Shown in pieces: positions 17,658-36,349 of a stretch of DNA of 64,000 nt. Both the position numbers and the translations under genes were made by a program. Numbering within the stretch: position 1 is the first letter of the stretch; each line of letters starts with the position of its first letter. The stretch comes from Colwellia sp. 12G3 (GTDB taxonomy: Bacteria > Pseudomonadota > Gammaproteobacteria > Enterobacterales > Alteromonadaceae), in the NCBI RefSeq assembly GCF_002836775.1, contig NZ_PJAQ01000054.1:186001-250000 (forward strand), in the 5' to 3' direction. The notes under the pieces are model-generated. The model saw only the letters and a list, made by a program, of their open reading frames with translations, was not told the origin of the DNA and did no database searches.

Positions 17658-17672
17658 GAGTTAATAAAAATC

Positions 17673-18005: not shown

Positions 18006-18032
18006 GAACAATTAATATGATGGCTATGTTCC

Positions 18033-18306
18033 CGCTAAGTGTCGTTTTAGGGTCATCATCAATACTTAAAGTATCAAAGCTGGTATTCCAGCTGACAATA
18101 ATCTCGGTGAGTCATTGTTGGTAAAGGTCAGTTTTATCATCGAAATAATAATGAATGTTTGCTCTTGGGATACTTGCTCGTTCGGCAATACGCTTAATGG
18201 ATGCGCCTTTAAAACCTTGGGTTACAAATTCTGTTTTAGCCGCAGTTAAAATAAGCGCCACATTCTTTTGGCGAATTTGTCCGACTGATTCTTTCTTTTC
18301 CTGCAC
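18033..18306 (-). pseudogene. TetR-family regulator (RutR-like), stop codon and 3' truncation
   Basis: The first 64 codons encode a TetR DNA-binding domain (RQKNVALILTAAKTEFVTQG, then GASIKRIAERASIPRANIHYYFDDKTDLYQQ), closest in pattern to RutR, the pyrimidine-sensing regulator. A TGA stop follows at 18112-18114, but the same frame continues with LTEIIVSWNTSFDTLSIDDD, which fits the next part of a RutR-type protein, and then ends near the 3' end of the receiver gene. The ligand-binding domain is therefore mostly gone. RutR-type proteins control pyrimidine and purine catabolism elsewhere, and the purine cluster starts 1.5 kb away, but a link is only inference. Confidence 0.75.
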
Positions 18307-19566: not shown

Positions 19567-19679
19567 CCTAATTATTTATGCCATACCAGACCTGTTAGTC
19601 ATTCCAGTATGTATCTTATTACTCCTAACAATAGGTGAAAGTGATGCGAATAATGGGCTATTAGCAAATCTTACTTAAC

Positions 19680-19718
19680 AAAAAGCAAGATAACTTACGG
19701 GGTAAGTCATCTTGCTTT
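19680..19718 (-). terminator. Terminator of glcB / purine cluster
   Basis: Long hairpin: AAAGCAAGAT (19682-19691) pairs with ATCTTGCTTT (19709-19718), with further pairing of ACTTAC/GTAAGT around a GGGG loop. On the minus strand it ends in five T, 61 nt after the glcB stop codon. A fragment resembling one end of repeat family B (GTCATTCCCGTG) follows at 19732-19743. Confidence 0.85.
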
Positions 19719-19779
19719 ATATGGTCAGTCGTCATTCCCGTGATCACATTATCGGGCACGCATTTTTATAGCTAATGTA

Positions 19780-21981
19780 TTAATACGAGGCTTTTACTTC
19801 CACACGACGTTGATGCAATAACGGCTCAGTATAACCGCAGGGCTGTTCTTTACCTGTGAAGATGAGTTCCGCTGCCGTTTTAAAGGCAATGCTATGCTCT
19901 AAATCAGTCGACATTGCTATGTAACTGGTATCATTAGAATTTTGCTGATCAACAATAGGCGCCATACGTTTTAGTGACTCATTCACTTGGCTTTCACTGA
20001 TCACACCATGATGTAGCCAGTTACAAATGTGCTGACTAGATATTCTTAAGGTGGCTCTATCTTCCATGCGGGCAACATTATCGATGTCAGGTACTTTAGA
20101 GCAGCCAATGCCTTGGTTAACCCAACGCACCACATATCCCAATAAGCCTTGAATGTTGTTGTCTAATTCTTTTTGAATGGCCGCAGCTGACAAGTCAGCT
20201 TGGTTTTTCAATAAAGGAATAGTCAATAAATCAGTTAAATCATTGATTGTGCCAGGTAAAGAAAACTCAGCTTGCATAACGTTTTGCACGGCTTGCACAT
20301 TGACTTTGTGATAATGCATCACATGTAAAGTCGCTGCGGTAGGTGAGGGTACCCAAGCACAGTTTGCACCTGATTGTGGATGGGCTATTTTGTTTTTTAC
20401 CATGGCTGACATTTGGTCAGGTATGGCCCACATGCCTTTACCTATTTGTGCTTTACCTTGCAGACCGGCTTGCAAACCAATTCTAACATTGCGAAGTTCA
20501 TAAGCCTTAATCCACGGCTCATCTTTCATTAATTCTTTTTGTGCCATAGCACCAGCAAGCATGCTGGTATGTATTTCATCACCGGTACGGTCTAAAAAGC
20601 CAGTATTGATGAAGGCAACCCGTGTTTGTGCTGCGCGAATACATTCTTTCAAATTCGCTGAGGTACGGCGTTCTTCATCCATAATACCCATTTTAATGGT
20701 ATTTTCCGCCAAGCCTAAATGCCGCTCGATGGCGCTAAATAAGTCATGACTAAAAGTAACTTCTTCAGGGCCGTGCATTTTAGGTTTTACAATGTAAATG
20801 CTGCCTTTTTGGGAGTTCTTAAATTTAGAGCTGCCTTTTAAATCATGTAATGAAATTAAGGTGGTGATAAGTCCATCGACAATACCTTCAGGTACATTTT
20901 CATCTTTTTCGGTGACGATAGCATCCGTAGTCATCAATAAGCCGACATTACGAATAAACTGCAGGCTTCTTCCTGATAGTGAAAAAGGCGCTTGGCTCGG
21001 TGATAAATAATCACGATCGTGATTTAAGGTACGAGTTATGGTTTTGTCACCTTTTTGAATGATCTCAGCAAGGTCACCTTTCATTAAACCTAACCAGTTA
21101 CGGTAAACAGCGGTTTTATCACTAGCATCAACCGCAGCAATAGAGTCTTCACAATCTTGAATAGTGCTTAAGGCTGACTCTAATACGACATCTTTAACAA
21201 AGGCGGCATCGGTTTTACCAACAATGTTATCTTTATCTATTTGGATTTCGATGTGCAAACCATTATGGCGACAAAGTAGCGCTGACGGAGCATCGGTAGA
21301 GCCATTGTAACCGACAAATTGTGCTGCATCTTTTAGCTGAACTTGTTCGCCAGAGAATAAGGTAACAGTGAAGTTTTTCTTAACGATATGATACTGCACC
21401 GCATCAATATGACTGCCAGATGTTAGTGGTAATGTATCGTCTAAAAACCTGCGCGCGTATGCTTGCACTCTACGTCCGCGAACAGGGTTGAATGTTTTAG
21501 TTTGTTGGGCACCGTTATCATCGCCGATAACGTCTGTGCCATATAAAGCGTCATACAAACTACCCCATCGTGCGTTTGCGGCATTAAGGGCAAATCTTGC
21601 ATTCATCAAAGGAACAACCAGTTGAGGGCCTGCTACCAGAGCAACCTCATCATCAACATTTTTAGTGGAGATAGTAAAATCTGCTTTTTCTTCTACCAGA
21701 TAGCCTATTTCTTTTAAAAACAATTGATAGCGTTGTTGGTCAAAAGGTTGGTCAAAAGGTTGGTTTGCTGCATCACTGTGCCATACATCAATTTGTGCTT
21801 GTAAATTAGCTCTGGTAGCTAATAGCTTTTGATTACGCGGAGTAAACACAGCTAAAATTTCAGCAACAGAATCCCAGAAGTGATTGGTCTTGATCGCAAG
21901 ACCCGGTAACACTTCATTTTCGACTAAATTAACTAGGCAGCCAGCAACCTTATAACCGTGCTTGATGGTTTTTTGCTTCAT
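19780..21981 (-). CDS. glcB: Malate synthase G
   Basis: A 733-residue enzyme condensing glyoxylate with acetyl-CoA to malate. It matches the long monomeric G isoform (about 720-730 residues) throughout: GLHIEIQID, RTLNHDRDY, the conserved block QIGKGMWAIPDQM and the signature WVPSPTAATLHVMHYHKVNV. As the last gene of the purine cluster it consumes the glyoxylate released by ureidoglycolate lyase, so purine carbon enters the TCA cycle. Only 9 bp separate its start codon from the puuD stop, which implies co-transcription. A strong terminator follows. A glycolate-oxidation role is possible too, but no glc genes are nearby. Confidence 0.96.
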   Translation of the reverse strand: MKQKTIKHGYKVAGCLVNLVENEVLPGLAIKTNHFWDSVAEILAVFTPRNQKLLATRANLQAQIDVWHSDAANQPFDQPFDQQRYQLFLKEIGYLVEEKADFTISTKNVDDEVALVAGPQLVVPLMNARFALNAANARWGSLYDALYGTDVIGDDNGAQQTKTFNPVRGRRVQAYARRFLDDTLPLTSGSHIDAVQYHIVKKNFTVTLFSGEQVQLKDAAQFVGYNGSTDAPSALLCRHNGLHIEIQIDKDNIVGKTDAAFVKDVVLESALSTIQDCEDSIAAVDASDKTAVYRNWLGLMKGDLAEIIQKGDKTITRTLNHDRDYLSPSQAPFSLSGRSLQFIRNVGLLMTTDAIVTEKDENVPEGIVDGLITTLISLHDLKGSSKFKNSQKGSIYIVKPKMHGPEEVTFSHDLFSAIERHLGLAENTIKMGIMDEERRTSANLKECIRAAQTRVAFINTGFLDRTGDEIHTSMLAGAMAQKELMKDEPWIKAYELRNVRIGLQAGLQGKAQIGKGMWAIPDQMSAMVKNKIAHPQSGANCAWVPSPTAATLHVMHYHKVNVQAVQNVMQAEFSLPGTINDLTDLLTIPLLKNQADLSAAAIQKELDNNIQGLLGYVVRWVNQGIGCSKVPDIDNVARMEDRATLRISSQHICNWLHHGVISESQVNESLKRMAPIVDQQNSNDTSYIAMSTDLEHSIAFKTAAELIFTGKEQPCGYTEPLLHQRRVEVKASY

Positions 21982-21990
21982 TTTTTACCC

Positions 21991-23190
21991 TTATTCTTTG
22001 TCTTTTCTTTGGTTTAACCAAAGTGACAGCGTTAGACGTTCTTCGTCGGTCATTTTGGTTTTGTTCATAAATGGCATGTCTTTACTGTCAATAACACGCG
22101 CTTGAATTCGTGGTGCCCATTGCTTGATAGAAGCAATATCTGTGAAAATAACGCCTGCTTGCGGAGTTTTAAACATATCATCCGTGGGTGCTTCTGAATG
22201 ACAGGCACTACAACGGCTTTCAATAATCTGTTGTACTTGTACATCAGTCACTACGTGTTGTTTCTGCTCGGCTGTTAGTTCAACTGTTTTGGGTGCAATA
22301 GCGTAAGCAAGTACGATAGTGGCGATAATAGAGCCAACTAAGACCATAGGTTTTTGTTTGCCAAAATGACGTAAAACAAAATACTGACGAACGGCAGCTG
22401 TGATCAAAATAATTGCCATCAATACTAACCAGTTAGCACTGTGGTTATAGGTAATTGGATAATGATTCGAAATCATAATGAATAACACGGGTAAGGTGAT
22501 ATAGGTATTGTGTGTTGAACGTAATTTAGCGTTAAGACCATATTTAGAGTCAGGCTTAGAGCCCTCTTCTACTGCTTTTACTAAGGCACGTTGTGATGGC
22601 ATGATGCCAAAAAACACGTTGCCAGCCATGATAGTGCCTAAAATAGCACCCATATGCATGTAGGCACCACGCGCACTAAATACTTGCGTTAAACCGTAAG
22701 ATAAAGCCGTAGCAATAACGAATAAAATAACCGCTAATACTAAGCCGTGATCTTTAAGTTTGGTTCTCACTAATAACTCATAACTACCCACACCAATAAC
22801 AATAGAGCCTAGGCCTAAGCCAATTGCTTGCCATTGTGTTAAATCTTTCACGCGCGGGTCAATTAAGTAAGACTCAGCGCCGACATAAAACATTAGCGAT
22901 AATAATAAGAAACCCGTGATCCACGTGGTATATGCTTCCCACTTAAACCAATGCAAGGTTGTTGGTATTGTTGGTGGCGCTAATTTGTATTTTGCTACTT
23001 CGTAAAAGCCACCGCCGTGAATAGCCCAGAGATCACCTGAAATGCCTTTTTCTTCTTTCCATTCGGGTGGTTTTTCAAGATGGTTATCTAACCAAACAAA
23101 ATAAAATGAGGCACCGATCCAAGCGATACCAACGATTAAATGTGCGAAACGAATGATTAAATTTAACCACTCAGTAATATACGGGTCCAT
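21991..23190 (-). CDS. puuD: Membrane-bound urate oxidase with C-terminal cytochrome c (PuuD)
   Basis: A 399-residue inner-membrane protein with about eight helices (residues 1-300), starting ITEWLNLIIRFAHLIVGIAW, the conserved PuuD opening. A periplasmic cytochrome c domain closes it, with CSACH at about 328 and candidate Met ligands near its end (DMPFMNKTKMT). PuuD oxidises urate to 5-hydroxyisourate and passes electrons through the haem to the respiratory chain instead of making hydrogen peroxide as soluble uricase does. No soluble uricase is in the cluster, so this fills the step between xanthine dehydrogenase and UraH. It is coupled to glcB (9-bp gap) and separated from guaD by 384 bp that contain two structured repeats, so puuD-glcB may have their own promoter. 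Confidence 0.94.
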   Translation of the reverse strand: MDPYITEWLNLIIRFAHLIVGIAWIGASFYFVWLDNHLEKPPEWKEEKGISGDLWAIHGGGFYEVAKYKLAPPTIPTTLHWFKWEAYTTWITGFLLLSLMFYVGAESYLIDPRVKDLTQWQAIGLGLGSIVIGVGSYELLVRTKLKDHGLVLAVILFVIATALSYGLTQVFSARGAYMHMGAILGTIMAGNVFFGIMPSQRALVKAVEEGSKPDSKYGLNAKLRSTHNTYITLPVLFIMISNHYPITYNHSANWLVLMAIILITAAVRQYFVLRHFGKQKPMVLVGSIIATIVLAYAIAPKTVELTAEQKQHVVTDVQVQQIIESRCSACHSEAPTDDMFKTPQAGVIFTDIASIKQWAPRIQARVIDSKDMPFMNKTKMTDEERLTLSLWLNQRKDKE

Positions 23191-23272
23191 AGTCTTTCCT
23201 TTTGTACGCTTACTCGTAGTAAGCGTTTTATAATTTTATGATTAACTAGCTAACTCAGGAGCTTGTTGAAAA

Positions 23273-23337
23273 GTCATCTTCGAAGATCCATTACTTTTTA
23301 GAAACTGGATCCCCGATTAATACACCACGGGGATGAC
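23273..23337. repeat. Structured intergenic repeat family B, short copy
   Basis: 65 bp bounded by GTCATC and GATGAC inverted ends. Inside are the palindrome ATCTTCGAAGAT, the block ATCCATTAC...AACTGGAT, and the stem ATCCCCG/CGGGGAT (with a 12-nt loop). The same plan (GTCAT end, hairpin, ATCCATT, AAACTGGAT, GAATGAC or GATGAC end) recurs in the longer copy at 61653-61821. Confidence 0.65.
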
Positions 23338-23477
23338 GTCCTTGAGCCATGTGCATAACAACGTAATTTTAATTAATTACGTTGTTAAATAATTATTTCT
23401 CTTAAGCGATGTTGCCTTAGACCCAGCTAGGCAACCGTCTGTTATATGTAATACACCATTAGTGAATTAGTTGATGA

Positions 23478-23559
23478 CTGAAGTTTGTGAGTACAAAGAA
23501 GAAGCACGGAATTTATAACTATAAATGAGTACTTCTGATGCCGTATTCGCAAGCTTCAG
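23478..23559. repeat. Structured intergenic repeat family C, copy 1
   Basis: Outer stem CTGAAGTTTG / CAAGCTTCAG (one mismatch) encloses a core, GAAGCACGG...TATAACTATAAATGAG and TACTTC (23501-23535), whose ends GAAG/CTTC pair. The core is shared with the copy at 63848-63912, which has a completely different outer stem. Confidence 0.6.
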
Positions 23560-23574
23560 GTATTAAATAATTTG

Positions 23575-24927
23575 TTAATTAACCTTTTCGCCCATGATGT
23601 GAGTAGCTTTGACATGACGATCGTCACCCAACATGCTCAAGACAAACAGCTTTTCAGTTAACGTTTTACAGCGTTTGATGCGAACATCCATTAAAGGCGT
23701 TGCTTGGTAATCAAGTACAATAAAATCAGCTTCTGCGCCTTTGGTGAAGTTACCAATAGTACCTTCTAAATCTAAGGCAACTGCGCCACCGAGCGTGGCT
23801 AAATACAATGATTTGTACGGGCTTAATTTATCGCCACGTAATTGCTGAGTTTTATAACCTTCGTTGAGTGTGGTCAACATAGAGAAGCTGCTACCAGCAC
23901 CTATGTCAGTACCTAAACCCACATTGACATCAAACTGCTCAGCTTGTTTTAAGTTAAAACAACCACTGCCTAAAAATAAGTTTGAAGTAGGACAAAAAGC
24001 AATCGCAGAATTGGTCTCACTTAAGCGCTGACATTCATGGTCGTGTAAATGTACACCGTGAGCAAATACACTACGGCGACCTAATAAACTGCTTTTATCG
24101 TACACATCAAGATAACCCTCACTGTCTGGGAATAACTCACTCACCCAAGCAATTTCATCTTTGTTTTCTGATAAATGGGTATGTAAATAAACGTCAGGAT
24201 ATTCTTTTAATAACTCACCGGCTTTATTCATTTGCTCTGTTGAACACGTAGGAGCAAAACGTGGTGTGATTGCATACTGTAATCTGTCGGTATTGTGCCA
24301 TTTTTCAATAAGTGACTTGCTGTCGTTATACCCTGATTCAACAGTATCTTGTAAATCGTCTGGGCAGTTTTGATTCATTAAAACTTTACCGCAAATCATG
24401 CGTAATTTTTTCTGTTGGGCGACAGTGAAAAAAGCGTCAACCGACTCTTTATGCACCGTACCAAATACAAGAGCAGTCGTTGTTCCTGCATCTAATAATT
24501 GCGTTAAGAAAAATTCGGCTACACGTTTACCGTGTTCAATATCACTAAATTGTTTTTCTTCTGGGAAGGTGTAATTTTCAAGCCATTCAAGTAATTGTTC
24601 GCCGTAAGATGCGACCATTTCAGATTGTGCATAATGCACGTGAGTATCAATAAATCCTGGCATGATTAGGCCATTGTCATATTGAGTAACGACTACATCG
24701 GCTGGTAATGTTGTTAGTAAGTCTTTGGCATTACCGACGGCTTCGACTAAGCCATTGTTAATGACTAAAAGTCCATCTGCAAAGTACTGGTAACTTTCTT
24801 CTTTCGCGACTTTGGCAGGATCGGCTAAAAAGTGTAGTACTTCGCCACGAAATGCTTTGCAGCCGGTATTGGTTGGTTTACTTATTACTTCACTCTTTGA
24901 AGAAATTTTTGCAGTGTTATTCGACAT
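23575..24927 (-). CDS. guaD: Guanine deaminase
   Basis: A 450-residue amidohydrolase converting guanine to xanthine and ammonia. Zinc ligands and signature motifs are visible: GFIDTHVHYAQSEMVASYG (about residues 90-108), HTHLSEN (about 247), FAHGVHLHD (about 290), SNLFLGSGCF and GLGTDIGAGSSFSML with the catalytic Asp. The long family length and the PGFIDTHVHYAQ form identify guanine deaminase rather than other aminohydrolases. It feeds guanine-derived xanthine to XdhAB. It sits between allA and puuD; 108 bp separate it from allA. Confidence 0.95.
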   Translation of the reverse strand: MSNNTAKISSKSEVISKPTNTGCKAFRGEVLHFLADPAKVAKEESYQYFADGLLVINNGLVEAVGNAKDLLTTLPADVVVTQYDNGLIMPGFIDTHVHYAQSEMVASYGEQLLEWLENYTFPEEKQFSDIEHGKRVAEFFLTQLLDAGTTTALVFGTVHKESVDAFFTVAQQKKLRMICGKVLMNQNCPDDLQDTVESGYNDSKSLIEKWHNTDRLQYAITPRFAPTCSTEQMNKAGELLKEYPDVYLHTHLSENKDEIAWVSELFPDSEGYLDVYDKSSLLGRRSVFAHGVHLHDHECQRLSETNSAIAFCPTSNLFLGSGCFNLKQAEQFDVNVGLGTDIGAGSSFSMLTTLNEGYKTQQLRGDKLSPYKSLYLATLGGAVALDLEGTIGNFTKGAEADFIVLDYQATPLMDVRIKRCKTLTEKLFVLSMLGDDRHVKATHIMGEKVN

Positions 24928-25035
24928 ATTACTTAACCTATTACTTATGTATTTTACTGTATCTGTGTATTGATGATTTGGTGCTGCTAGCCTTTAAAAT
25001 TGACTGTGATTAGCTTATTGCACGCTATCTAAATT

Positions 25036-25542
25036 TTAATCTAAATTAATGATGATTGAACCGTCGAGTTTTTCTACATCGCAGTTATCACCTTCTCCGC
25101 CGCGATCGACTACGAGAAAGTCACTGACATCATTGAGTGCTAAACAAAAGTGATGCCAAGTACCTTTATGGTAATTTACCCCTTGCTCAGCGCTTGCTAA
25201 AAACACTTTAATGGCTGAGATATCAAGTTCACCTGCGGGGGCAACCACCACCACATAAGGCTGCTTGCTCATAGGAATAAATGCTTGGCTGCCCAAAGGA
25301 TGACGTTCCATCATTTCGATCGGTAAAGGAAAAGCCAGCGGGGTGGAACGAAAAATATTAAGCAAGGTTTTACCCTGTTGCTCAGCAACGTCAACATCAG
25401 CAAGGTTGTGATAACGCATAGTGTGGCCATCATTAATGGCGAAATGTTCAGCACTTTCGGACACTGAAATAACATCCCCATAAGCGGAGAAATTCTCTGC
25501 CGTTAGCTCTTGGGGTATAACATTAATGATTTTACTGGTCAT
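25036..25542 (-). CDS. allA: Ureidoglycolate lyase
   Basis: A 168-residue cupin-fold enzyme that splits ureidoglycolate to glyoxylate and urea. Family motifs: MERHPLGSQAFIPM (about 78-91), GVNYHKGTWHHFCLAL (about 120-135) and DFLVVDRGGEGDNCD (about 139-153). It is the last nitrogen-releasing step before GlcB takes up glyoxylate. It lies 101 bp after uraH on the minus strand. Two urea per urate are released by allantoicase plus this enzyme, so urea must be exported or hydrolysed by a urease elsewhere. Confidence 0.94.
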   Translation of the reverse strand: MTSKIINVIPQELTAENFSAYGDVISVSESAEHFAINDGHTMRYHNLADVDVAEQQGKTLLNIFRSTPLAFPLPIEMMERHPLGSQAFIPMSKQPYVVVVAPAGELDISAIKVFLASAEQGVNYHKGTWHHFCLALNDVSDFLVVDRGGEGDNCDVEKLDGSIIINLD

Positions 25543-25643
25543 CTTATCTTCTCTGTTAATTATAATGCTTAGCTATTAATATTTTTCTACTGGCTAGAAA
25601 CTATTGTGTATAAATTTTTTTGCTAAACCTTACTTAGGTAGGC

Positions 25644-25985
25644 TTAACTACCGCGGTAAGTAGAGTATCCATAGGCGGTTAGCAATAATGGAATATGGTA
25701 ATGCGTGCCACTGGCGTCAATTTCAAAAACGATATCGACGTAGGGATAAAAGCCGGTTTCGTTATTGGCTTTAAAATAACTAGCGGTGGCAAAATGCATA
25801 CGGTAAACACCAGCGGGTAATTTTTCATTATCAGCTAATAAACCCGGTAAACGACCATCACCATTAGTGACACCACCATTTACTTCTTTCCAACCTTTAC
25901 CGTCTTGCGCAAACAAGGTAATCGGTACATTTTGCGCGGGTAAACCACGGGTAGTATCAAGTATATGGGTAGTAATTTGACTCAT
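25644..25985 (-). CDS. uraH: 5-Hydroxyisourate hydrolase (transthyretin-like)
   Basis: A 113-residue transthyretin-fold enzyme that opens 5-hydroxyisourate to OHCU. Diagnostic features: the N-terminal HILDTTRG, the central NGDGR with the catalytic Arg, HYHIPLLL and the C-terminal tetrapeptide YRGS that separates HIU hydrolases from true transthyretins. There is no signal peptide, so it is cytoplasmic. It is 27 bp downstream of uraD, the next enzyme in the path, and both act on unstable intermediates of the PuuD reaction. Confidence 0.96.
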   Translation of the reverse strand: MSQITTHILDTTRGLPAQNVPITLFAQDGKGWKEVNGGVTNGDGRLPGLLADNEKLPAGVYRMHFATASYFKANNETGFYPYVDIVFEIDASGTHYHIPLLLTAYGYSTYRGS

Positions 25986-26012
25986 ATTTGTTCCTTAAAA
26001 GTATTATTCGGA

Positions 26013-26534
26013 TTAGCCTTCAGTTAATGCGTTTCCGAAGGCTTTAGTAATACGTAGTTGAAAGATTTTTCGTTGCTCTTCAGCGGCATTAACCAACTCT
26101 TGCGCTTTGTTATTAGGTAAACGTGTCTGTAATAAATCAGACATTTGTTTAGCACTTTTACCTGTCGCACAAACAATAAAGATAAAGCCAAATTTTGCTT
26201 CATAGTCGCTGTTACCTTGAGAAAGTACTTCAAGTACATCGTCATTGGCTTCTTTAACTAATCCTTGCTCGTTACCTGCTAATTCTTTGGTATTAGCATA
26301 CTTAGCACGTAAACTGCTGACATCACCAATTTTTGGATGGCCTTCAAACGCTTCAAAATAATCTTGTTCAGTTAAACCTAGCCAAGCATCATCAGCGGCT
26401 TTTTTTATTGCCGTCGTATCAGCAAATGGACGCGCTGCTACCATGTTGTTTACCCAAGTGCTTGAAGTACAGCATTGCATAAACGTATGACTTGCCTCAG
26501 CTACGGATAATTGGTTTAAATCTTCTAATCTCAT
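26013..26534 (-). CDS. uraD: OHCU decarboxylase
   Basis: A 173-residue enzyme that decarboxylates 2-oxo-4-hydroxy-4-carboxy-5-ureidoimidazoline to S-allantoin. Motifs: HPKIGD with the catalytic His (about 65-70), SNEQ-type segment AGNEQGLV, and FGFIFIVCATGKSA (about 116-129), plus the C-terminal R.TKAF. It sits directly upstream of uraH (27 bp), as expected for sequential steps that keep allantoin stereochemistry. Confidence 0.95.
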   Translation of the reverse strand: MRLEDLNQLSVAEASHTFMQCCTSSTWVNNMVAARPFADTTAIKKAADDAWLGLTEQDYFEAFEGHPKIGDVSSLRAKYANTKELAGNEQGLVKEANDDVLEVLSQGNSDYEAKFGFIFIVCATGKSAKQMSDLLQTRLPNNKAQELVNAAEEQRKIFQLRITKAFGNALTEG

Positions 26535-26604
26535 TATAGTTTCCTCTATTTACTCTTTCTCTGTGTAACGACATCTAAATAAATGCCGTTACTTAGCATG
26601 CTTA

Positions 26605-27657
26605 TTAACCTTGACGGTTACCAAAAACACGCAGTCGAGAAATACCACCATCAGGGAAAATACTTAAACGTACGTGAGTAAAAGGTTGATCTTTTTCTGT
26701 GATGATTTCTTTAGTAAATAAATGTTCACGATGCGCATACAACTTAGTACTTGGAATAATCGGCGTCCAAGTAACGCTCGGTGCATTTTCAGTGAAATCA
26801 TCGCTATCGCTGATACAACCTTCAAGCATGAAAGTATCAGGAAAGTTACCCTTAAAGTGACAGGTATCTATGATGACTTTATTAACACTACCCGTAGCGG
26901 CAAGTTTAACAATTGACCAATCTGGACCTGGATCACGACGACGTTTAGTTTCCCAACCATCACCCATGTTGGCGCCACGGCCAGGCATGATTAGGTTGTT
27001 TTTATCACTGAAAAACATATCGCTTACTAACAACGCTTTTGCACCATTTTTAATCGAAGCTAAATCAATAAGTTCACCGTCAACAAAGTCATTCCAGTTT
27101 ACATCTGCTTCACCATAAACACGGAAACGCGCAATACCACCATCAGGGAACATAGTTAAACGTACATGAGTAAAGGCGGTATTATTCGATATTTCAAACA
27201 GATTTTGGCTATGCGCTTTAACGTCAGTCGCTTCAAAAATTGTCTGCCAAACGGTATCTGCATTTGGCTGTACTTCACTAACACAAGCTTCTACGGAAAC
27301 TTTTTCTGGCGCGTTGCCACGAAAGTAGTTGGTATCGATATCAAAAGCGCGAATAACGCCACTGATGCCTAAACGGATAATACACCAATCAGAATCACGA
27401 CCATTATTACGGCCATAACTTCTGCGTGATTCCCAACCGTCCATCCATTTACCACGTTCAGTAAATTTCTCTTCGATAAAAATACCACGGCCTACTTTTA
27501 ATAAGTTTTCCATTTCTGCGAAGAAATCATCACTACAAGACAGTGTTTCACCACCCACTTTTTCGCTGGCTAAATCTACATAATGCGTTTTTAATTTTTG
27601 CTCTAATACCGCTTCTTCTGCCGACAATTTGTTTTGTGCTAACCAATCTTCAATCAT
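26605..27657 (-). CDS. alc: Allantoicase
   Basis: A 350-residue enzyme that hydrolyses allantoate to ureidoglycolate and urea. It has the two tandem jelly-roll repeats of the family: the first (about 45-180) with GKWMDGWESRRSYGRN and GISGVIRAFDIDTNYFRGN, the second (about 215-345) with NMGDGWETKRRRDPG and VIIDTCHFKGNFPD. Each ends in a similar FTHVRL.(M/I)FPDGGI.R.RV.G motif. Using allantoicase rather than allantoate amidohydrolase means nitrogen leaves as urea, matching AllA downstream. It lies between allB and uraD. Confidence 0.96.
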   Translation of the reverse strand: MIEDWLAQNKLSAEEAVLEQKLKTHYVDLASEKVGGETLSCSDDFFAEMENLLKVGRGIFIEEKFTERGKWMDGWESRRSYGRNNGRDSDWCIIRLGISGVIRAFDIDTNYFRGNAPEKVSVEACVSEVQPNADTVWQTIFEATDVKAHSQNLFEISNNTAFTHVRLTMFPDGGIARFRVYGEADVNWNDFVDGELIDLASIKNGAKALLVSDMFFSDKNNLIMPGRGANMGDGWETKRRRDPGPDWSIVKLAATGSVNKVIIDTCHFKGNFPDTFMLEGCISDSDDFTENAPSVTWTPIIPSTKLYAHREHLFTKEIITEKDQPFTHVRLSIFPDGGISRLRVFGNRQG

Positions 27658-27757
27658 TTCTTTTCTCCAGTTACTGCATTGTCAGGCAAGCCTTTGTCGA
27701 CTCTGATACATTGCGTGAATGTTAATTTTATTATTTTGATTCAGTATTTTACCAAGC

Positions 27758-29113
27758 TTACAACTGACCTTTAAGTAGTGGTCTACCTATTGGCGAATTA
27801 ATGAATTCATCTTGCTGATAAACATGAAAACCACGCACAAAGGTATGGTTTACTTGACCAAATACTTTGCGACCTGCATAAGGGGTAATGTTGTGCTTAT
27901 GTTTGATCATTTCGGTGGTAATGGTGTATTCAATCGTTGGATCAAAAACACAAAAATCTGCATGGTTACCTACTTTAATAGCACCTTTAATTCCATCTAA
28001 ACCAGCAAATTTAGCGGTTTCTAGTGACATTAAACGTGCTAAATCTACCAAGGTAAAACCACGGTCTTTGGCTTCAGTCCAGATTAAAGAGAGACCAAAT
28101 TGTAGTGCTGAAATACCGCCCCATGCTTTTTCAATATCGCCGGTATCAATATGTTTTAATTCTGGCGTACAAGGAGAGTGATCAGAAACGATAAAGTCTA
28201 AGCGACCATCGGTAATGGCTTGCCATAAATGCTCACGATTTTTGTTTTCACGAATTGGCGGACAACATTTGAATAATGTTTTGCCATCTGGAATATTTTC
28301 AGAGGCAATGGTTAAATAATGAGGGCAGGTTTCAGCGGTAAAACGTAAACCTTCAGACTTTGCTTGTGCAATGGTGCTTAATGCTTCATCAGAGGATAAA
28401 TGCACGATATGCACTTTACAATTATCACCGGCTTCTTTTGATTCACGTGCCATATCAACCATTAACGAGATAGCATTGTTTTCCCAGCTTTTTGGCCGTG
28501 ATTCTAAGAAAGAGTCGTATTTTTTAGTGATTTCAACGTCATCAAAATGACCACAATCTAATTCAGCATGAATCAAATAAGGTACATCATATTTAGCTAA
28601 AATAGGCATAGCAGCGCGCATATCTTTGGCTTCAACAGGTGGGAACTCTTCGATACCAGAATCAATCAAAAAGGATTTAACACCGAGAACACCAGCAGAG
28701 AGTAACCCATCAAGTTCATCAATATTATCAGGGATAACACCGCCCCAAAAACCACAATCTACCCAAAGTTTATCGTCAACAGAGTCGAGCTTTTCTTGAA
28801 AAGCGGCTTTGGTCGTTGTGACTGGAATACAGTTTAACGGCATATCTACTAAGGCGGTGATACCACCTGCAGCAGCAGCTTGAGTAGCGGTATTAAAACC
28901 TTCCCATTCAGTACGACCAGGTTCATTGATATGAACGTGAGAGTCGACTAAGCCAGGCATAATAACTTGTTCACCAAAGTCTTTAACTTCGCAGTTGAGT
29001 GCTTGGCCATAAGGGTGAATAGCATGAATCAGCTGGTCTTTGATTTCGACGCAAGCCGCGATCATGTTTCCTGCAATGACTACTTGTGTACTTTGTAGAG
29101 CAAAATGGGACAC
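27758..29113 (-). CDS. allB: Allantoinase
   Basis: A 451-residue cyclic amidohydrolase opening allantoin to allantoate. Motifs: PGLVDSHVHINEPGRTEWEG (about 50-69) with two metal-binding His, GVKSFLIDSG with the Lys normally carboxylated to bridge the metals (about 145), HAELD, HIVHLSS and the late Asp in FIVSDHSPCT. The TEWEGF form and AAAAGGITALVDMPLN separate it from hydantoinases and dihydroorotases. It follows xdhC after a 251-bp gap containing a family A repeat and an inverted repeat, so it may start a second transcript. Confidence 0.94.
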   Translation of the reverse strand: MSHFALQSTQVVIAGNMIAACVEIKDQLIHAIHPYGQALNCEVKDFGEQVIMPGLVDSHVHINEPGRTEWEGFNTATQAAAAGGITALVDMPLNCIPVTTTKAAFQEKLDSVDDKLWVDCGFWGGVIPDNIDELDGLLSAGVLGVKSFLIDSGIEEFPPVEAKDMRAAMPILAKYDVPYLIHAELDCGHFDDVEITKKYDSFLESRPKSWENNAISLMVDMARESKEAGDNCKVHIVHLSSDEALSTIAQAKSEGLRFTAETCPHYLTIASENIPDGKTLFKCCPPIRENKNREHLWQAITDGRLDFIVSDHSPCTPELKHIDTGDIEKAWGGISALQFGLSLIWTEAKDRGFTLVDLARLMSLETAKFAGLDGIKGAIKVGNHADFCVFDPTIEYTITTEMIKHKHNITPYAGRKVFGQVNHTFVRGFHVYQQDEFINSPIGRPLLKGQL

Positions 29114-29156
29114 CTTGCTAACTCCTCTAATGTAATGAACCTGTTAAATGTGTTTT

Positions 29157-29262
29157 CCAATGGTCTAAATATCCAATAACTTCATTGCTTTCAATCCCAA
29201 TAGCCAGCTATTAGTCAATCGAGCGCCTTGTTCTTGAAAATTTATCCTCATTGCTTATTTTA
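29157..29262. repeat. Dispersed intergenic repeat family A, copy 2 (short)
   Basis: Shares with the other copies TCCAATGGTCTAAAT, CAATCCCAATAGCCAGCTAT, CAATCGAGCGCCTTG, and TTGAAAATTTATCCTCATTG. The right-hand terminal repeat is missing, so it is a decayed or truncated copy. It lies between allB and xdhC inside the purine cluster. Confidence 0.7.
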
Positions 29263-29280
29263 AAATGAAAGTTGTAAGCT

Positions 29281-29320
29281 GAACTCAATTTAATAGCTAT
29301 AACTCTCTCAAATTGAGTTC
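29281..29320 (-). terminator. Inverted repeat between xdhC and allB
   Basis: Perfect 11-bp arms GAACTCAATTT and AAATTGAGTTC with an 18-nt loop, 45 nt after the xdhC stop codon. There is no T-tract, so termination would be inefficient; it may instead stabilise the xdhABC transcript end. Confidence 0.4.
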
Positions 29321-29364
29321 ATTTCAGTAAATATGTGCGAGCATATCTTTGTTTATTTGGTTTG

Positions 29365-30264
29365 CTAACTGACTATTTCTTCTGTCATTAAGCTTTTCAA
29401 TTCTTGCCAAGCGATGCCTTTTTTTGAACTCTGTGGCTTGGCATTTTTTTGTTTATTAACCGTTGGATTAGTTAATGTTTTTTCAGCCAGTTTGGCTTGA
29501 TAAAGCTGAATGATTTCACCGGCAACTGACACGGCTACTTCCATTGGTAACTTGCCTTGAACTTGCGCTAAACCAATCGGGCAGTTCATCTTATCTACTA
29601 AGCTTTTTTCTATATCGCGATGTTGAAAGCGCTGTTGAAAACGACGCCATTTGGTATCCGAAGCAATTAAGCCTGAATAAGCAAAATCAGCACGTTTTAA
29701 AATATTATGGCTAATGTCAAAATCAAGTTGATGGTTGTGCGTCATCACAATGTAGTAGCTGTTTGCTGGCATGCTTGCCACTTCTTCTTCGGGATTTTCA
29801 CTAATAACCGCAGTAACATTAGAATAACTGTCGATATCATCTGGAAATTGCTCAGCGCGGTTATCTACCCAAGTAATACTGCAAGGTAAGCCAGCTAAGA
29901 TGGGGATCAGTGCTTTACCGACATGTCCTGCGCCAAATAGCATGATATTGGCACCACTAGCGCTAAAACATTCAAATAATACGCTGGCATCACCACCACA
30001 ACATTGACCTAATTGTGCGCCTAACTGAAAATGTTCTAGTTGCTGACAAGCTTCACCGGACGTTAACAACTGATGAGCATGTTTAATCACCTTATGTTCA
30101 AGATGACCACCACCGATAGTGTCAAAAATATCTTCATTGGTTATCACCATTTTGGTGCCACTATTACGCGGTGTTGAACCGGTTACACCGACAATTGTCG
30201 CAACAACATAAGCTTTGCCTTGTTTGTTTAGTTGGTGTACCGCGCCGGTCCAATTAATCTTCAT
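29365..30264 (-). CDS. xdhC: Xanthine dehydrogenase accessory protein XdhC
   Basis: A 299-residue maturation factor that binds molybdenum cofactor, supports its sulfuration and hands it to XdhB. The N-terminal XdhC/CoxI motif is present: VATIVGVTGSTPRNSGTKMV and DTIGGGHLEH, with the conserved GQCCGG further on. A Rossmann-like second half follows with IMLFGAGHVGKALI (about 129-142). It lies 58 bp downstream of xdhB, the standard xdhABC order. Confidence 0.94.
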   Translation of the reverse strand: MKINWTGAVHQLNKQGKAYVVATIVGVTGSTPRNSGTKMVITNEDIFDTIGGGHLEHKVIKHAHQLLTSGEACQQLEHFQLGAQLGQCCGGDASVLFECFSASGANIMLFGAGHVGKALIPILAGLPCSITWVDNRAEQFPDDIDSYSNVTAVISENPEEEVASMPANSYYIVMTHNHQLDFDISHNILKRADFAYSGLIASDTKWRRFQQRFQHRDIEKSLVDKMNCPIGLAQVQGKLPMEVAVSVAGEIIQLYQAKLAEKTLTNPTVNKQKNAKPQSSKKGIAWQELKSLMTEEIVS

Positions 30265-30322
30265 GATGATATTCCTATATATTCCGCTTGCTGAGTGAGT
30301 TAAGAGCGAATGAAAGGGTTAA

Positions 30323-32740
30323 TTACTTCGCCACACTCGCTGTGGTTGTTGCTTTAAGCGCTTCAACCGCAAATAACACACGCTCAGGTGTCGCCGGTGT
30401 GTCTAGTTTAGGACTAACTTTGTAGTCAGCGACACTGGCAACGGCATCTTTCAATGCTGACCATACAGCCATACCTAACATAAACGGTGGTTCACCAACC
30501 GCTTTAGAGTTATAAATAGTGTGTTCACGGTTTGGCGCATCAGGTACTAAGGCAACACGAAAATCTTCTGGTGCATCGTTAATTGCAGGGATTTTGTAAG
30601 TCGCTGGATTATTTGAAAGTAAACGACCTTGCTCATTCCATACTAATTCTTCTGTCGTTAACCAACCCATGCCTTGCACAAAAGCCCCTTCTATTTGCCC
30701 AATATCAATCGCTGGGTTAATTGAGTGACCAACATCTTGTAAAATATCAGTACGCAGTGTTTTGTACTCACCGGTTAAGGTATCCATGATTACTTCAGAA
30801 ACACAAGCACCTGTTGCGAAGTAGAAGAACGGACGTCCTTTACCACTAGCACGATCATAGTGAATCTTAGGTGTTTTGTAGAAACCAGTAGAAGATAATG
30901 AAACACGATTCATGTAAGCAATTTGCGAGAACTCAGCAAAGCTAAAGGTTTGTTCGCCAACAATAACATTGTTGTTTTCAAAGTGAACTTGCTGTGCTTC
31001 AACGTCATATTTATCACAAGCAAAGTCAATTAAACGTTGTTTGATGCTTTTAGCTGCGGCTTCAGCCGCTTTACCATTTAAGTCAGTACCTGAAGAGGCC
31101 GCTGTAGGCGATGAGTTGGGTACTTTATCAGTACGGGCAGCAGAACAAGCAACCGTATCAACATCAACTTGGAATTCTTCAGCAACAATTTGCGCTACTT
31201 TAGTATTCAAACCTTGACCCATTTCAGTACCACCATGGCTTAAGTGAATTGTGCCATCAGTGTAAACATGAACAAGTGCACCGGCTTGGTTCAAATGCTG
31301 TACCGTGAATGAAATACCAAATTTCACTGGTGTTAAGGCAATACCCTTTTTCAAAATTGGACTAGTAGCGTTAAATTCAGTAATGGCTTTACGACGGGCT
31401 TGGTAGTCAGAACTTTCTTCTAATGATTCAATGATCTCGCTTAAGTTGTTATGTTCAATGGTTTGATCATAATGAGTAACGTTACGTTCTTCTTTACCGT
31501 ATAAGTTAATTTTGCGGATTTCTAATGGATCTTTACCTAGGTGACGAGCAATTTCATCCATGATCAGTTCTATAGTCATCATACCTTGAGGACCACCAAA
31601 ACCACGGTAAGCGGTATGAGAAACAGTGTTTAGTTTACAGCGGTTACCGGTAATAGTTGCTTGATCTAAATAGTAAGCATTATCTGAGTGAAACATCGCT
31701 CTATCAACAATCGCATCAGATAAATCAGGTGAGTAACCACAGTTACCATTTACTTCGATGTTAATGCCTTTGATTTGACCATTTTTGTCAAAACCAACGG
31801 TGTAGTTGTTTTCAAATGGGTGACGTTTACCTGTCATTACCATATCGTCTAAACGCGCTAACTTAAACTTAACGGGGCGTTTTGTTTCATTTGCAAGTAA
31901 AGCGGCAATACATGCCCAAGGTGCAGCTTGCGTTTCTTTACCACCGAAACCACCACCCATACGACGCATATCAACTAATACTTTGTTTAGTGGAATATCA
32001 AGTACTTCAGCGACCAACTTTTGTACTTCACTTGGATGTTGTGAAGAAGTGTAGATGTTCATACCACCATCTTCAGTAGGCTCTGCTGTTGAAACTTGGC
32101 CTTCAAGATACATATGCTCTTGACCACCAACAACGATCTCCCCTGATAATTGATGCTCAGCAGCCGCAATTGCAGATTCAGAATCGCCACGTTTCAACGT
32201 ATGTGGCGGACGAACAAAGCTTTTTTTAGCTAAAGCGTCTTTTACGGTAAGTACTGCTTCAAGTTCTTCATACTCAACTTTTGCCAATTTAACGGCTTTA
32301 CGTGCCAAGTCGAAACTTGTTGCTGCAACGGCGAAAAGTGGTTGACCAACAAATTCTACTTTACCAATAGCTAATACTGGGTCACCTGGAAATACCGGGC
32401 CGATATCAGTATGACCTGGTACATCTTCAACGGTAATTACTTTTACCACACCTTCTGCCGCTTTAACGGCAGATAAGTCCATTGAAATGATATTTGCATG
32501 AGCCATGGTTGATTGACCAACGGCTGCATGTAATTCGCCACGAAGAGAGGGGCGGTCATCAACATAAATGGCTTCACCCGCTACTTGCTTGTCAGCACTT
32601 TCATGTTTTTTAGAGCGACCTACGCCACCTAAACCAATATTTTTTTGTCCGTTAACTACATCTTTGTCAGCGTTAGTTTTTACCGTGTGTAAATCGGCTT
32701 TTTTTACATCACTTTTCTTTATATTTATTAGACTACGCAT
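30323..32740 (-). CDS. xdhB: Xanthine dehydrogenase, molybdopterin-binding subunit
   Basis: An 805-residue large subunit carrying the molybdenum cofactor. Features: the first domain with SADKQVAGEAIYVDD (about 47-61), GGGFGGKETQA in the cofactor cleft, AYRGFGGPQG, GTEMGQGLNTKV, and the catalytic Glu in the late segment NSKAVGEPPFMLG (about 752). It oxidises hypoxanthine and xanthine to urate together with XdhA. Its ATG overlaps the xdhA stop by one base (TAATG), so translation is coupled. Length matches bacterial two-subunit enzymes (about 780-800). Confidence 0.96.
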   Translation of the reverse strand: MRSLINIKKSDVKKADLHTVKTNADKDVVNGQKNIGLGGVGRSKKHESADKQVAGEAIYVDDRPSLRGELHAAVGQSTMAHANIISMDLSAVKAAEGVVKVITVEDVPGHTDIGPVFPGDPVLAIGKVEFVGQPLFAVAATSFDLARKAVKLAKVEYEELEAVLTVKDALAKKSFVRPPHTLKRGDSESAIAAAEHQLSGEIVVGGQEHMYLEGQVSTAEPTEDGGMNIYTSSQHPSEVQKLVAEVLDIPLNKVLVDMRRMGGGFGGKETQAAPWACIAALLANETKRPVKFKLARLDDMVMTGKRHPFENNYTVGFDKNGQIKGINIEVNGNCGYSPDLSDAIVDRAMFHSDNAYYLDQATITGNRCKLNTVSHTAYRGFGGPQGMMTIELIMDEIARHLGKDPLEIRKINLYGKEERNVTHYDQTIEHNNLSEIIESLEESSDYQARRKAITEFNATSPILKKGIALTPVKFGISFTVQHLNQAGALVHVYTDGTIHLSHGGTEMGQGLNTKVAQIVAEEFQVDVDTVACSAARTDKVPNSSPTAASSGTDLNGKAAEAAAKSIKQRLIDFACDKYDVEAQQVHFENNNVIVGEQTFSFAEFSQIAYMNRVSLSSTGFYKTPKIHYDRASGKGRPFFYFATGACVSEVIMDTLTGEYKTLRTDILQDVGHSINPAIDIGQIEGAFVQGMGWLTTEELVWNEQGRLLSNNPATYKIPAINDAPEDFRVALVPDAPNREHTIYNSKAVGEPPFMLGMAVWSALKDAVASVADYKVSPKLDTPATPERVLFAVEALKATTTASVAK

Positions 32741-34233
32741 TAGTAATTCACCACTCGTGTTTCAATAACTTCTCTTGTCTGGGCACTTTGTAGCTCTAAA
32801 TAGCATTTCTCGATAAGGTTTTGAGCTACGGTCAGACGATACTTACTCGACGCACGTACATCAGTCATAGGCTGAAAATCAGTCGCTAGCGCTTCTTTAG
32901 CTTGTGCTACTAGCTCTTTCGTTAAGCTATTACCTTGCCCATCACCTAGTAATACAGCTTCTGCCGCGAGGCCACGCTTAGGAATACCCGCCATACCGCC
33001 GAATGCTAAACGCACATTGGTAATTTTTTGGCCGTTTTCTGTAGGTGTTTGCTCAATGAAGAATGCGGCTAATACCGCAGAAATATCATCATCTAAGCGC
33101 TTGGATATCTTGTAAAGCTTAAGTGTTTGACCAGCAAGGGGCTTAGGAATTGTAATAGACTTGATGAATTCAGAGGTTTGCAGAACCGTTTTCTTGTAAT
33201 CAAGGAAAAATTCTTCAACTAAGATAGTACGCTCTTTGCCGTTAAGGTGCAGCGTCATCGTTGCGCCAAGTGCAATTAATGCAGGAGGCATATCGCCGAT
33301 AGGCGAAGCGTTACCTATGTTTCCGCCTAAAGTACCGGTATTACGAACTTGTTTCGCACCAATACGCTCAATCATGTCACCAAGATCTGGGTAGTAGTGG
33401 TGTAAAGTATCGATAAAATCACTGTAGGGTAATGCAGAACCAATAACTATTTCAGACTCAGTTTCTTCAATAGTGGTTAATTCAGCAACGTTGCCTACAT
33501 ACACTAGCTTTTTAACAACAGCTAAGTTTTGGGTAACTGAAAGGGCTAAATCGGTACCACCAGCCACTAACGTTGATTTTGGTTCACGTACTAATTCTGT
33601 TGCTAACTCATCAATGTTCTGCGGAGCGATATAAGTATTACCATTACCATTTAATGTAGGGGTTGGTAATTTATCTAGCTCAGTAAGTGTTACTAGCGTT
33701 TGTTGGTAATGCTTAGCAAAAGAATCGTCTTGATTACCTTCGCTAGAAGTCATTGCCGCTTCAATTATTGAACGGTAACCCGTACAACGACATAAATTTC
33801 CTGCTAATGCTTCTAGTACTTCAGCACGATTTGGTTTGTTATTTTGCTTATGTAAAGCAAATGACGACATTACAAAACCTGGCGTACAGAAGCCACATTG
33901 TGAACCGTGGTTATCAACAATCGTTTGCTGAGCATGGTGCAATTTAGCGCCATCTTTTAAGTCTTCAACGGTGATCAATTGCTTGCCATGTAAATTACCG
34001 ACAAAGGTAATACAGGCGTTAATTGATTTATAAGTAAGTTGACTAGGTTTTTCAGAATCTAGTTCAGCGAGTACTACGGTACAAGCACCACAGTCACCGG
34101 AAGCACAGCCTTCTTTTGTACCCGATTTAAATTGCTCTTCACGTAAATATTGTAAAACCGTCGTATTAGGATCTAAGTTTTCAATATTTACTAGCTCGTT
34201 GTTTAACAGGAATTTTATTGTATTTGCTACCAT
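32740..34233 (-). CDS. xdhA: Xanthine dehydrogenase, FAD/2Fe-2S subunit
   Basis: A 497-residue small subunit. Residues 1-165 hold two 2Fe-2S domains: the plant-ferredoxin type with CASGDCGACTVV and the helical type with CGFCTPGFV and CRCTGYRSI. An FAD domain follows (about 205-390) with TLVAGGTDLAL and the flavin motif TLGGNIGNASPIGDMPPALI, then the CO-dehydrogenase-type C-terminal domain. Electrons from the XdhB molybdenum centre pass through these to NAD. It is the first gene of the cluster; the promoter candidate upstream carries a palindrome over its -35 region. Confidence 0.96.
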   Translation of the reverse strand: MVANTIKFLLNNELVNIENLDPNTTVLQYLREEQFKSGTKEGCASGDCGACTVVLAELDSEKPSQLTYKSINACITFVGNLHGKQLITVEDLKDGAKLHHAQQTIVDNHGSQCGFCTPGFVMSSFALHKQNNKPNRAEVLEALAGNLCRCTGYRSIIEAAMTSSEGNQDDSFAKHYQQTLVTLTELDKLPTPTLNGNGNTYIAPQNIDELATELVREPKSTLVAGGTDLALSVTQNLAVVKKLVYVGNVAELTTIEETESEIVIGSALPYSDFIDTLHHYYPDLGDMIERIGAKQVRNTGTLGGNIGNASPIGDMPPALIALGATMTLHLNGKERTILVEEFFLDYKKTVLQTSEFIKSITIPKPLAGQTLKLYKISKRLDDDISAVLAAFFIEQTPTENGQKITNVRLAFGGMAGIPKRGLAAEAVLLGDGQGNSLTKELVAQAKEALATDFQPMTDVRASSKYRLTVAQNLIEKCYLELQSAQTREVIETRVVNY

Positions 34234-34290
34234 TATTCTTTCCGCTTTAATTTTGATTTTTAGTGTCGATTCGAATATTCGTATGAATTG

Positions 34291-34324
34291 ACTATAGCAG
34301 AATCATAAGTTGACACAAGTGTCA
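34291..34324 (-). promoter_or_regulatory. Candidate xdhA promoter with overlapping operator palindrome
   Basis: Reading the minus strand, TTGTGT, 16 nt, then TATAGT preceded by TGC (extended -10) gives a good sigma-70 promoter about 60 bp before the xdhA start codon. The -35 box lies within the near-perfect palindrome TGACACAAGTGTCA (34311-34324), placed where a repressor would block polymerase. A second palindrome, CGAATATTCG (34272-34281), lies downstream of the -10. The regulator is unknown; the rest of 34234-34677 holds only the AT-rich upstream region of the next gene and its AAGGA ribosome site. Confidence 0.55.
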
Positions 34325-34677
34325 GCTTTGATTTATTTGTTCATTATAGCTTTGAGTAAATACACTAAACAGCGAGTTATTATTTTTAGATAGCAGGAAG
34401 TAATGGTTGGTTCTTAGTGTTTATCTTGTTATAAAACAGTATTTTACGTGGTTTTTTTTAAAGAAGGTTATTTCAGTTTATCAGCGCATATTTATCAGTA
34501 AGCTATTCATAATGCTAATTTCACCATGTGAAATTAATCTGATTGAATAAGTATCCATGGGTGTTTTATAACGCTATATTTCTAGGATTTTTCTATTTTG
34601 AGCAATAACTAGCTTTTTAATAGGACTTTCAAGGCTGTTTTTCTCATTGTGGTGTTCTCAAAAAAAAGGAAGACTCA

Positions 34678-36333: not shown

Positions 36334-36349
36334 CGATTTAAAAGCATAT

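Follow-up and report, generated by a model that had tools for sequence, protein, structure and literature searches.

Here we describe a purine-degradation gene cluster in a stretch of 64,000 nucleotides (nt) from Colwellia sp. 12G3 (contig NZ_PJAQ01000054.1, positions 186,001 to 250,000; hereafter the window), which includes its own malate synthase G gene (glcB) and probably forms the center of a larger regulon under repression by a RutR-like TetR-family protein that would bind the palindrome TTGACACNNGTGTCAA. The cluster comprises eleven open reading frames, in transcription order xdhA-xdhB-xdhC-allB-alc-uraD-hiuH-allA-guaD-puuD-glcB, all on the minus strand from 34233 to 19780, and lies on contig C41 of a draft genome of 68 contigs and 5.06 Mb that is rated 100% complete. 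A predicted copy of the operator, TTGACACAAGTGTCAG, is located at 34310..34325, 76 nt before the start codon of xdhA, and has one mismatch to TTGACACNNGTGTCAA.

The position of the operator was examined in the 73 loci (72 distinct) where 250 nt or more of sequence precede xdhA, seven more being too short. Allowing two mismatches, TTGACACNNGTGTCAA was observed upstream of xdhA in 19 loci, and the RutR-like form TTGACCANNTGGTCAA in 29; neither form was seen in 25 loci and both in none. As a control, the two forms were sought in 3001 stretches of 300 nt drawn at random from these loci, and occurred in 0.7% and 0.6% of them, respectively. The 19 loci consist of the window, all 12 fetched congeners carrying the cluster and six other loci, with the palindrome in the same place; the 12 congeners are from the 15 with a cluster-type GlcB, and 11 of them match TTGACACNNGTGTCAA with at most one mismatch and one with two. 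The window operator differs from the RutR-type form TTGACCANNTGGTCAA at five positions, and that second form is found in the congener G194, which has a diverged cluster (L049).

In loci or genomes for which a regulator sequence was available, the operator form was observed to go with the recognition helix of the regulator. TTGACACNNGTGTCAA accompanies the helix I[PA]R[AT]NIHYY in L095, L100, L101, the genome of 12G3 itself, G003 and six congeners, whereas among 13 regulators with LPK[TA]N[VIL]LYY, encoded beside Alteromonas/Vibrio-type clusters, ten are near TTGACCANNTGGTCAA within two mismatches and none is near TTGACACNNGTGTCAA. G003 encodes an additional regulator beside xdhA with the helix LPKANIHYYF, and four further regulators with LPKANIHYYF or LPKANLHYYF (L113, L116, L117, and L144) had neither operator form within two mismatches.

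A scan of the 5.06 Mb genome, allowing at most one mismatch, revealed four TTGACACNNGTGTCAA sites, each with one mismatch, and none with the reversed pattern. Apart from the site upstream of xdhA, one is located on contig C2 between a gene for a class-V aminotransferase, the best solved relative of which is an alanine-glyoxylate aminotransferase, and a gene for a Tsx-like porin, followed by a malic enzyme gene; a site with up to two mismatches occurs at this place in all nine relative loci that have both genes. The third site, also on C2, lies between bhcB-bhcC-bhcD and an IclR-type gene, and all three products exceed their cut-offs (BhcB 589 against 550, BhcC 727 against 690, and BhcD 580 against 500). 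Over 22 nt or more, this site does not vary between 12G3 and five relatives, the flanks of which are partly changed. Of six congeners whose downstream DNA was fetched, five have the bhc genes, with the site, some 4-10 kb away from the gene for malic enzyme; in the sixth (G302), neither the bhc genes nor the malic enzyme gene were seen in the downstream stretch. The fourth site is 5' of the genes for cytidine deaminase and pyrimidine nucleoside phosphorylase. The two operator forms stand next to each other at a cytidine deaminase/pyrimidine phosphorylase gene pair at C4:14534 of 12G3 (L224, around 9500), which suggests cross-talk of purine and pyrimidine regulators.

Comparable arrangements were found elsewhere. 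The operator lies 5' of a glyoxylate carboligase gene (gcl) placed right after puuD in L109, with genes for hydroxypyruvate isomerase, tartronate semialdehyde reductase and glycerate kinase behind it, 5' of a thiamine pyrophosphate-enzyme gene with the same Pfam make-up in L111, and 5' of an NCS2 permease gene in L104. Different lineages thus appear to put different glyoxylate outlets under one operator, in a pattern with gaps.

The candidate regulator is encoded downstream of glcB in 10 of 11 named puuD-glcB loci and often directly after puuD where glcB is absent. In the window, only a broken 5' part of this RutR-like TetR gene, truncated and with an in-frame stop, is found behind glcB (18022..18297, minus strand), and the intact gene of 12G3 resides on contig C2. 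G304, in contrast to this division, holds malic enzyme, porin, operator, aminotransferase, TetR, glcB and puuD together, and it seems that a rearrangement parted the regulator, aminotransferase, porin, malic enzyme and bhc genes on C2 from the catabolic genes on C41. The split looks recent, because over 454 nt (18036-18489) the window matches the 5' part of the complete C2 regulator gene at 98.2% identity; alternatively, it may be a misassembly. The 454-nt duplicate is near a MipA gene (18796-19566) and marks an apparent chromosomal break point between C2 and C41.

The gene content of the cluster was as the preliminary description had it, namely eleven genes in one direction covering every step from guanine and xanthine to malate: all open reading frames have the expected ends, and ten products exceed the cut-offs of curated NCBIfam equivalogs, the exception being PuuD, which had no NCBIfam match and was assigned by Pfam. 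Xanthine dehydrogenase is encoded by xdhA (small subunit, 32740..34233; TIGR02963, 590 bits against a cut-off of 467) and xdhB (molybdopterin subunit, 30323..32740; TIGR02965, 1332 against 849.5), with its accessory protein encoded by xdhC (29365..30264; TIGR02964, 310.6 against 161.6). These are followed by allB for allantoinase (27758..29113; TIGR03178, 568 against 358), alc for allantoicase, which releases urea (26605..27657; TIGR02961, 415 against 278), uraD for 2-oxo-4-hydroxy-4-carboxy-5-ureidoimidazoline (OHCU) decarboxylase (26013..26534; TIGR03180, 206.5 against 139.4), hiuH for 5-hydroxyisourate hydrolase (25644..25985; TIGR02962, 145 against 87), allA for ureidoglycolate lyase, which yields glyoxylate and urea (25036..25542; NF002954, 286 against 212), and guaD for guanine deaminase (23575..24927; TIGR02967, 627 against 375). 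The last two genes are puuD, for a membrane urate oxidase with a C-terminal cytochrome c-like domain (21991..23190), and glcB (19780..21981; TIGR01345, 1053 against 989, and 93 bits to PF20658, the malate synthase G insertion domain). All are on the minus strand. In the predicted pathway, guanine is converted to xanthine by GuaD, xanthine to urate by xanthine dehydrogenase, and urate to allantoin by PuuD, HiuH, and UraD; AllB, allantoicase and ureidoglycolate lyase then turn allantoin into glyoxylate and two urea, and GlcB condenses glyoxylate with acetyl-CoA to malate.

The regulator, its sites and these enzymes can be combined into one model, in which we infer TetR binding to the sites, the inducer, the fluxes, the aminotransferase substrate and the role of the porin. 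When purine is present, the RutR-like repressor would leave its operators, and purines or nucleosides would enter through the Tsx-like outer-membrane channel and an NCS2 permease. The eleven-gene group would convert purines to glyoxylate, urea and reducing power. Electrons from xanthine dehydrogenase would go to NAD. Those from urate would pass through the PuuD cytochrome into the respiratory chain, in line with published chemistry, and two ureas per purine would be released and probably excreted. Glyoxylate could then leave by three outlets: GlcB would join it with acetyl-CoA to malate, the class-V aminotransferase would convert it to glycine, and BhcC would join glycine and glyoxylate, after which BhcB and BhcD would lead to aspartate with a net gain of carbon. 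Malic enzyme would convert malate to pyruvate, whereby acetyl-CoA would be regenerated for GlcB. More tentatively, and with somewhat less confidence than we have in the regulon itself, we propose that the repressor, its helix and operator having changed together, may have become specialized for purines in Colwellia and related bacteria, where it would join uptake and degradation with interchangeable glyoxylate outlets (glcB or gcl-hyi-glxR; bhcBCD with the aminotransferase; malic enzyme), with purines alone serving as carbon and energy source and urea being excreted.

The fate of nitrogen was assessed from the rest of the genome. No match to the urease alpha subunit was found in the 12G3 genome (4 of 14 control genomes match), and no urea carboxylase scored over the cut-off, the best match reaching 551 against 1304 and covering only profile positions 1-443; nitrogen acquisition from urea through either enzyme was rejected on these grounds. 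Because neither was found, urea excretion is likely, and as the allantoicase route ends in urea, most purine nitrogen probably leaves in this form. The suggestion that purines serve as a nitrogen source is correspondingly weakened. A purine permease was also looked for elsewhere, and the NCS2 (purine/pyrimidine) permease family is indeed represented. The strongest match (C1:486494) adjoins upp, and its best-scoring named permease is a uracil permease; the NCS2 copy on contig C19 is the better purine candidate, since its orthologue is encoded at purine gene clusters, for example in L096, L100, and L104.

GlcB uses up one acetyl-CoA per glyoxylate, and because of this consumption glcB by itself serves energy or anaplerosis and gives no net carbon for growth. 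The same cost of malate synthase has been raised for Pseudomonas aeruginosa (PMC12694930). Glyoxylate carboligase was not found at its cut-off in the 12G3 genome, where the best match scored 331.5 bits against a cut-off of 711, and was discarded as a glyoxylate sink in this strain. The earlier idea that purines are a carbon source therefore does not hold for GlcB alone, but a likely complement is present outside the window, where bhcBCD, the aminotransferase and malic enzyme stand behind the same operator.

The genome encodes a second GlcB at C11:657294-659420, about 3 kb from isocitrate lyase and 58% identical to the cluster type. It is the expected glyoxylate-shunt copy, making the cluster glcB a second, cluster-specific malate synthase G and ruling it out as the sole malate synthase of the genome. 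In a midpoint-rooted tree of 42 GlcBs, 27 of 28 cluster copies group apart from the shunt GlcB with support 100/99; since the L104 GlcB has a long branch, all 28 come together as one side of a branch supported at 69/86. Cluster-type GlcB was present in 15 of 36 other genomes of the genus, at 71-95% identity, and puuD adjoins its gene in all 17 loci considered (the 15 congeners, 12G3 and G003). The glcB-bearing loci belong to Colwellia, Shewanella hanedai, Psychrosphaera, Thalassomonas, a Kangiella metagenome-assembled genome and one Pseudoalteromonas, and the nearest named PuuDs are from Colwellia, at 91-89% identity; the culturable Colwellia piezophila ATCC BAA-637 (L090) shares the gene order of the window. 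In one close relative (L231, G299), the cluster is followed downstream, from 18554, by a second glcB copy that is truncated and contains a stop.

The preliminary description had also linked puuD directly to glcB. This is supported insofar as glcB belongs to the cluster, having its own tree group and adjoining puuD throughout, but the spacing is not conserved and glcB is missing from several related clusters. Between tblastn ends, the distance ranges from 9 to 283 nt in 36 loci (the 12G3 copy included, and some genomes counted twice), and on this scale the 9-nt spacing of the window reads 12; in G304 it is 274 nt, though its GlcB is the nearest to that of the window (95%). This variation rules out a strict puuD-glcB coupling. 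Among the 80 named loci that ranked best of more than 589 found, glcB directly follows puuD in 11, seven of the 80 have less than 2400 nt downstream, and xdhC, allB, alc, uraD, hiuH, allA, guaD, and puuD are all present in 18, nine of them with glcB. The congener G194 has a shorter and much diverged cluster (PuuD 48%) without allB, alc, allA, and glcB. On a PuuD tree of 36 rows, glcB presence requires four changes, at least three of them forced by well supported branches, and on account of these several gains or losses glcB is best described as a facultative module of one slot.

These changes of glcB within the same cluster type, together with the acetyl-CoA requirement of GlcB, would also fit an unlikely but more modest explanation, in which the cluster performs ordinary purine scavenging for energy or for the amino nitrogen of guanine, glcB serves only in glyoxylate detoxification, and the further genes that carry the operator have no relation to it. 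For SAR11, purine operons with PuuD have been interpreted as yielding energy, glyoxylate and released urea (PMC11698098), and the site is missing at bhc or NCS2 genes in several relatives. Against this explanation, all four sites in 5.06 Mb sit at nucleobase or glyoxylate genes, the bhc genes stay near the malic enzyme gene with a site in five of the six congeners, and the L109 site precedes gcl. Less probable still is that the palindrome is read by another regulator, e.g. the IclR/BhcR-type protein encoded beside bhcB, and that the regulon is driven by glyoxylate. One conserved site does lie between bhcB and the IclR-type gene, and BhcR responds to glyoxylate (PMC11323563), but the operator form tracks the TetR recognition helix, a RutR-like palindrome replacing TTGACACNNGTGTCAA where the helix is RutR-like, and the site also occurs in loci whose available sequence showed no IclR-type gene (L095, L100, and L104).

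Several observations count against repression of a purine regulon by the RutR-like protein. The operator loci are related, so their counts are not independent events; 25 of the 73 loci have neither operator form, and the similar regulator of L110 (ISRPNVHYYY) is among those with neither. By a hand estimate, chance alone should yield roughly one site in each genome at one mismatch. The regulators score below the RutR cut-offs of 368 (TIGR03613) and 230 (PRK15008), with 196 and 171.5 for L063 and 172 and 149 for the C2 protein of 12G3. On the side of the targets, the aminotransferase, about 12 kb from bhcBCD, scores 209 against 650 for BhcA, the porin is a sub-threshold Tsx match (22.1 against 27.2 bits), the genome has two other malic enzymes, and a canonical bhcA was not seen beside bhcBCD in the stretches read, no whole-genome search for bhcA having been made. 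The BhcR model was matched below its cut-off (155 against 350), and the bhc site could belong to the neighboring IclR-type gene. The NCS2 site of 12G3 has two mismatches and lies about 500 nt upstream; in L096 and L100, where the NCS2 orthologue is encoded close to the cluster, no site precedes it, and in L097, where bhcD-C-B directly follow the regulator, no site is found within two mismatches by the bhc genes. The sites missing in these three loci slightly lower our confidence in a single regulon. Finally, the GlcB of L104 has the long branch described above, and of the 18 named loci nearest to the window, 7 lack glcB in the slot, with one too short to tell.

PuuD, the urate oxidase of the cluster, matches Pfam Urate_ox_N (PF06181) over residues 4-298 with 420 bits against a cut-off of 26.9 and has a CSACH motif within its C-terminal 100 residues. 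PuuD has been described as a cytochrome c urate oxidase that oxidises urate without forming peroxide (Doniselli et al., 2015; PMC4562309). CXXCH was present in all 115 PuuD matches covering more than 90% of the query (some genomes counted twice), and Cys327, Cys330, His331, and Met372 are invariant across 42 aligned PuuDs. At E ≤ 1, the Haem_bd, Cytochrome_CBB3 and Cytochrom_C families match 30, 29, and 26 of 31 PuuD C-terminal domains, the scores of the window PuuD itself to cytochrome c-family Pfam models being below the cut-offs. In structure searches, the cytochrome domain alone retrieved mostly cytochromes c, weakly (best Foldseek E 0.86, Z ≤ 3.0). With the whole PuuD, a PDB sequence search gave no matches, Foldseek gave none at E ≤ 0.001, and VIA-align found only common helical arrangements. 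That the cytochrome scavenges superoxide instead of feeding respiration is doubtful: the discoverers of PuuD name this alternative and did not see specific azide inhibition, but catalase rose with a peroxide-forming uricase and not with PuuD, and they favour cytochrome-mediated electron transfer (PMC4562309). Across the order, Urate_ox_N was matched in 71 of 295 genomes, in three of them (G029, G059, and G111) only partially. Short open frames of 211-274 amino acids in these three and in G003 (L170-L173) match just two parts of Urate_ox_N and perhaps represent a separate membrane family related to the PuuD membrane domain.

The intergenic spacings from xdhA to glcB are -1, 58, 251, 100, 70, 27, 101, 108, 384, and 9 nt, the widest being the 251 nt 5' of allB and the 384 nt 5' of puuD, and given this unevenness both allB and puuD may have their own promoters. 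A scan for sigma-70-like promoters gave 25 sites, fewer than the 51 in shuffled sequences. The guaD-puuD gap contains a conserved non-coding element (23449..23574, minus strand), for which several Colwellia loci show 94-97% identity along 125-126 nt. It is thereby better conserved than its neighbors in, for example, L089, L090, and L098, where guaD DNA is 83-87% and puuD 76-86% identical. It is reduced to pieces in L230, L233, and L254, and an inner stretch is deleted in some relatives. An Rfam search of window positions 17500-36000, which include the element, gave no matches, and its consensus fold has seven pairs with no compensatory change; folded alone, the window strand gave z = -2.8, with 2 of 200 shuffles equally good. 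Another part of the gap (about 23254-23367, minus strand) is unalignable in most relatives, with at least its start present in G304, and may be a small mobile element.

Other features of the window were also recorded. In the xdhC-allB gap, 29153-29275 is an interspersed repeat with copies at window positions 49363-49461 (83%) and 180-248 (78%) and on contig C1 (L088, 90%). Just upstream of xdhA, 34678-38959 holds a sulfatase-modifying-factor-like gene with CBM6, which has a 65% DNA match on contig C4, and a DUF4034/TPR gene; the pair is missing from that position in G304, whose DNA aligns on both flanks. At 49592-55814, a resistance-nodulation-division efflux set, whose adaptor protein has a CusF-like domain, is probably for copper or silver export.

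Marine microbes exude purines and feed on them, and a marine study follows them to glyoxylate and urea only, as far as the parts of its text considered here go (PMC11698098). If our interpretation is right, a group of cold-sea bacteria recovers purine glyoxylate via malate synthase G and the beta-hydroxyaspartate cycle, which the papers considered here treat mainly in connection with glycolate, and these bacteria give purine nitrogen back to the sea in the form of urea. Clusters with PuuD are already known, as are the release of urea and the beta-hydroxyaspartate cycle; among the open-access titles and abstracts listed, none was found to combine purine genes with malate synthase G or with that cycle, and a RutR purine regulon may already stand in RegPrecise. 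Like the PuuD of Doniselli et al. (2015), the window protein combines a PF06181 membrane domain with a C-terminal CXXCH domain; that PuuD was tested in Agrobacterium, and malate synthase and glyoxylate are unmentioned in the main text (PMC4562309). The cluster also resembles the SAR11 PuuD operons in its NCS2 permease, xanthine dehydrogenase, PuuD, HiuH, UraD, allantoicase and ureidoglycolate lyase, many SAR11 being without urease, with energy and glyoxylate kept and urea released. Malate synthase is unmentioned in the text of that paper, whereas here glcB is in the cluster, and bhcBCD, the aminotransferase and malic enzyme share its operator (PMC11698098).

In the allantoin-inducible PA1498-PA1502 genes of P. 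aeruginosa, an assimilation module for purine-derived glyoxylate likewise lies near purine genes, but it leads to pyruvate through 2-phosphoglycerate (PMC12694930), in contrast to the malate synthase G and beta-hydroxyaspartate cycle found here. Two net routes for glyoxylate are known, and the beta-hydroxyaspartate cycle is one of them, with purines named as a glyoxylate source; in Paracoccus, as here, bhcB, bhcC, and bhcD lie beside an IclR-type gene; the Paracoccus genes were described in a glycolate context, while those of 12G3 are linked to purine genes and preceded by the purine operator, with no canonical bhcA seen alongside (PMC11323563). Lastly, E. coli RutR likewise belongs to the TetR family, regulates nucleobase genes and has a 16-bp palindrome (PMC10891134), and RutR regulons with taxon-specific motifs have been reported (PMC5343134). 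The Colwellia protein would provide a testable case of a regulator family whose DNA word changes along with its target pathway. It scores below the RutR cut-offs and differs from RutR in its recognition helix and in its operator.

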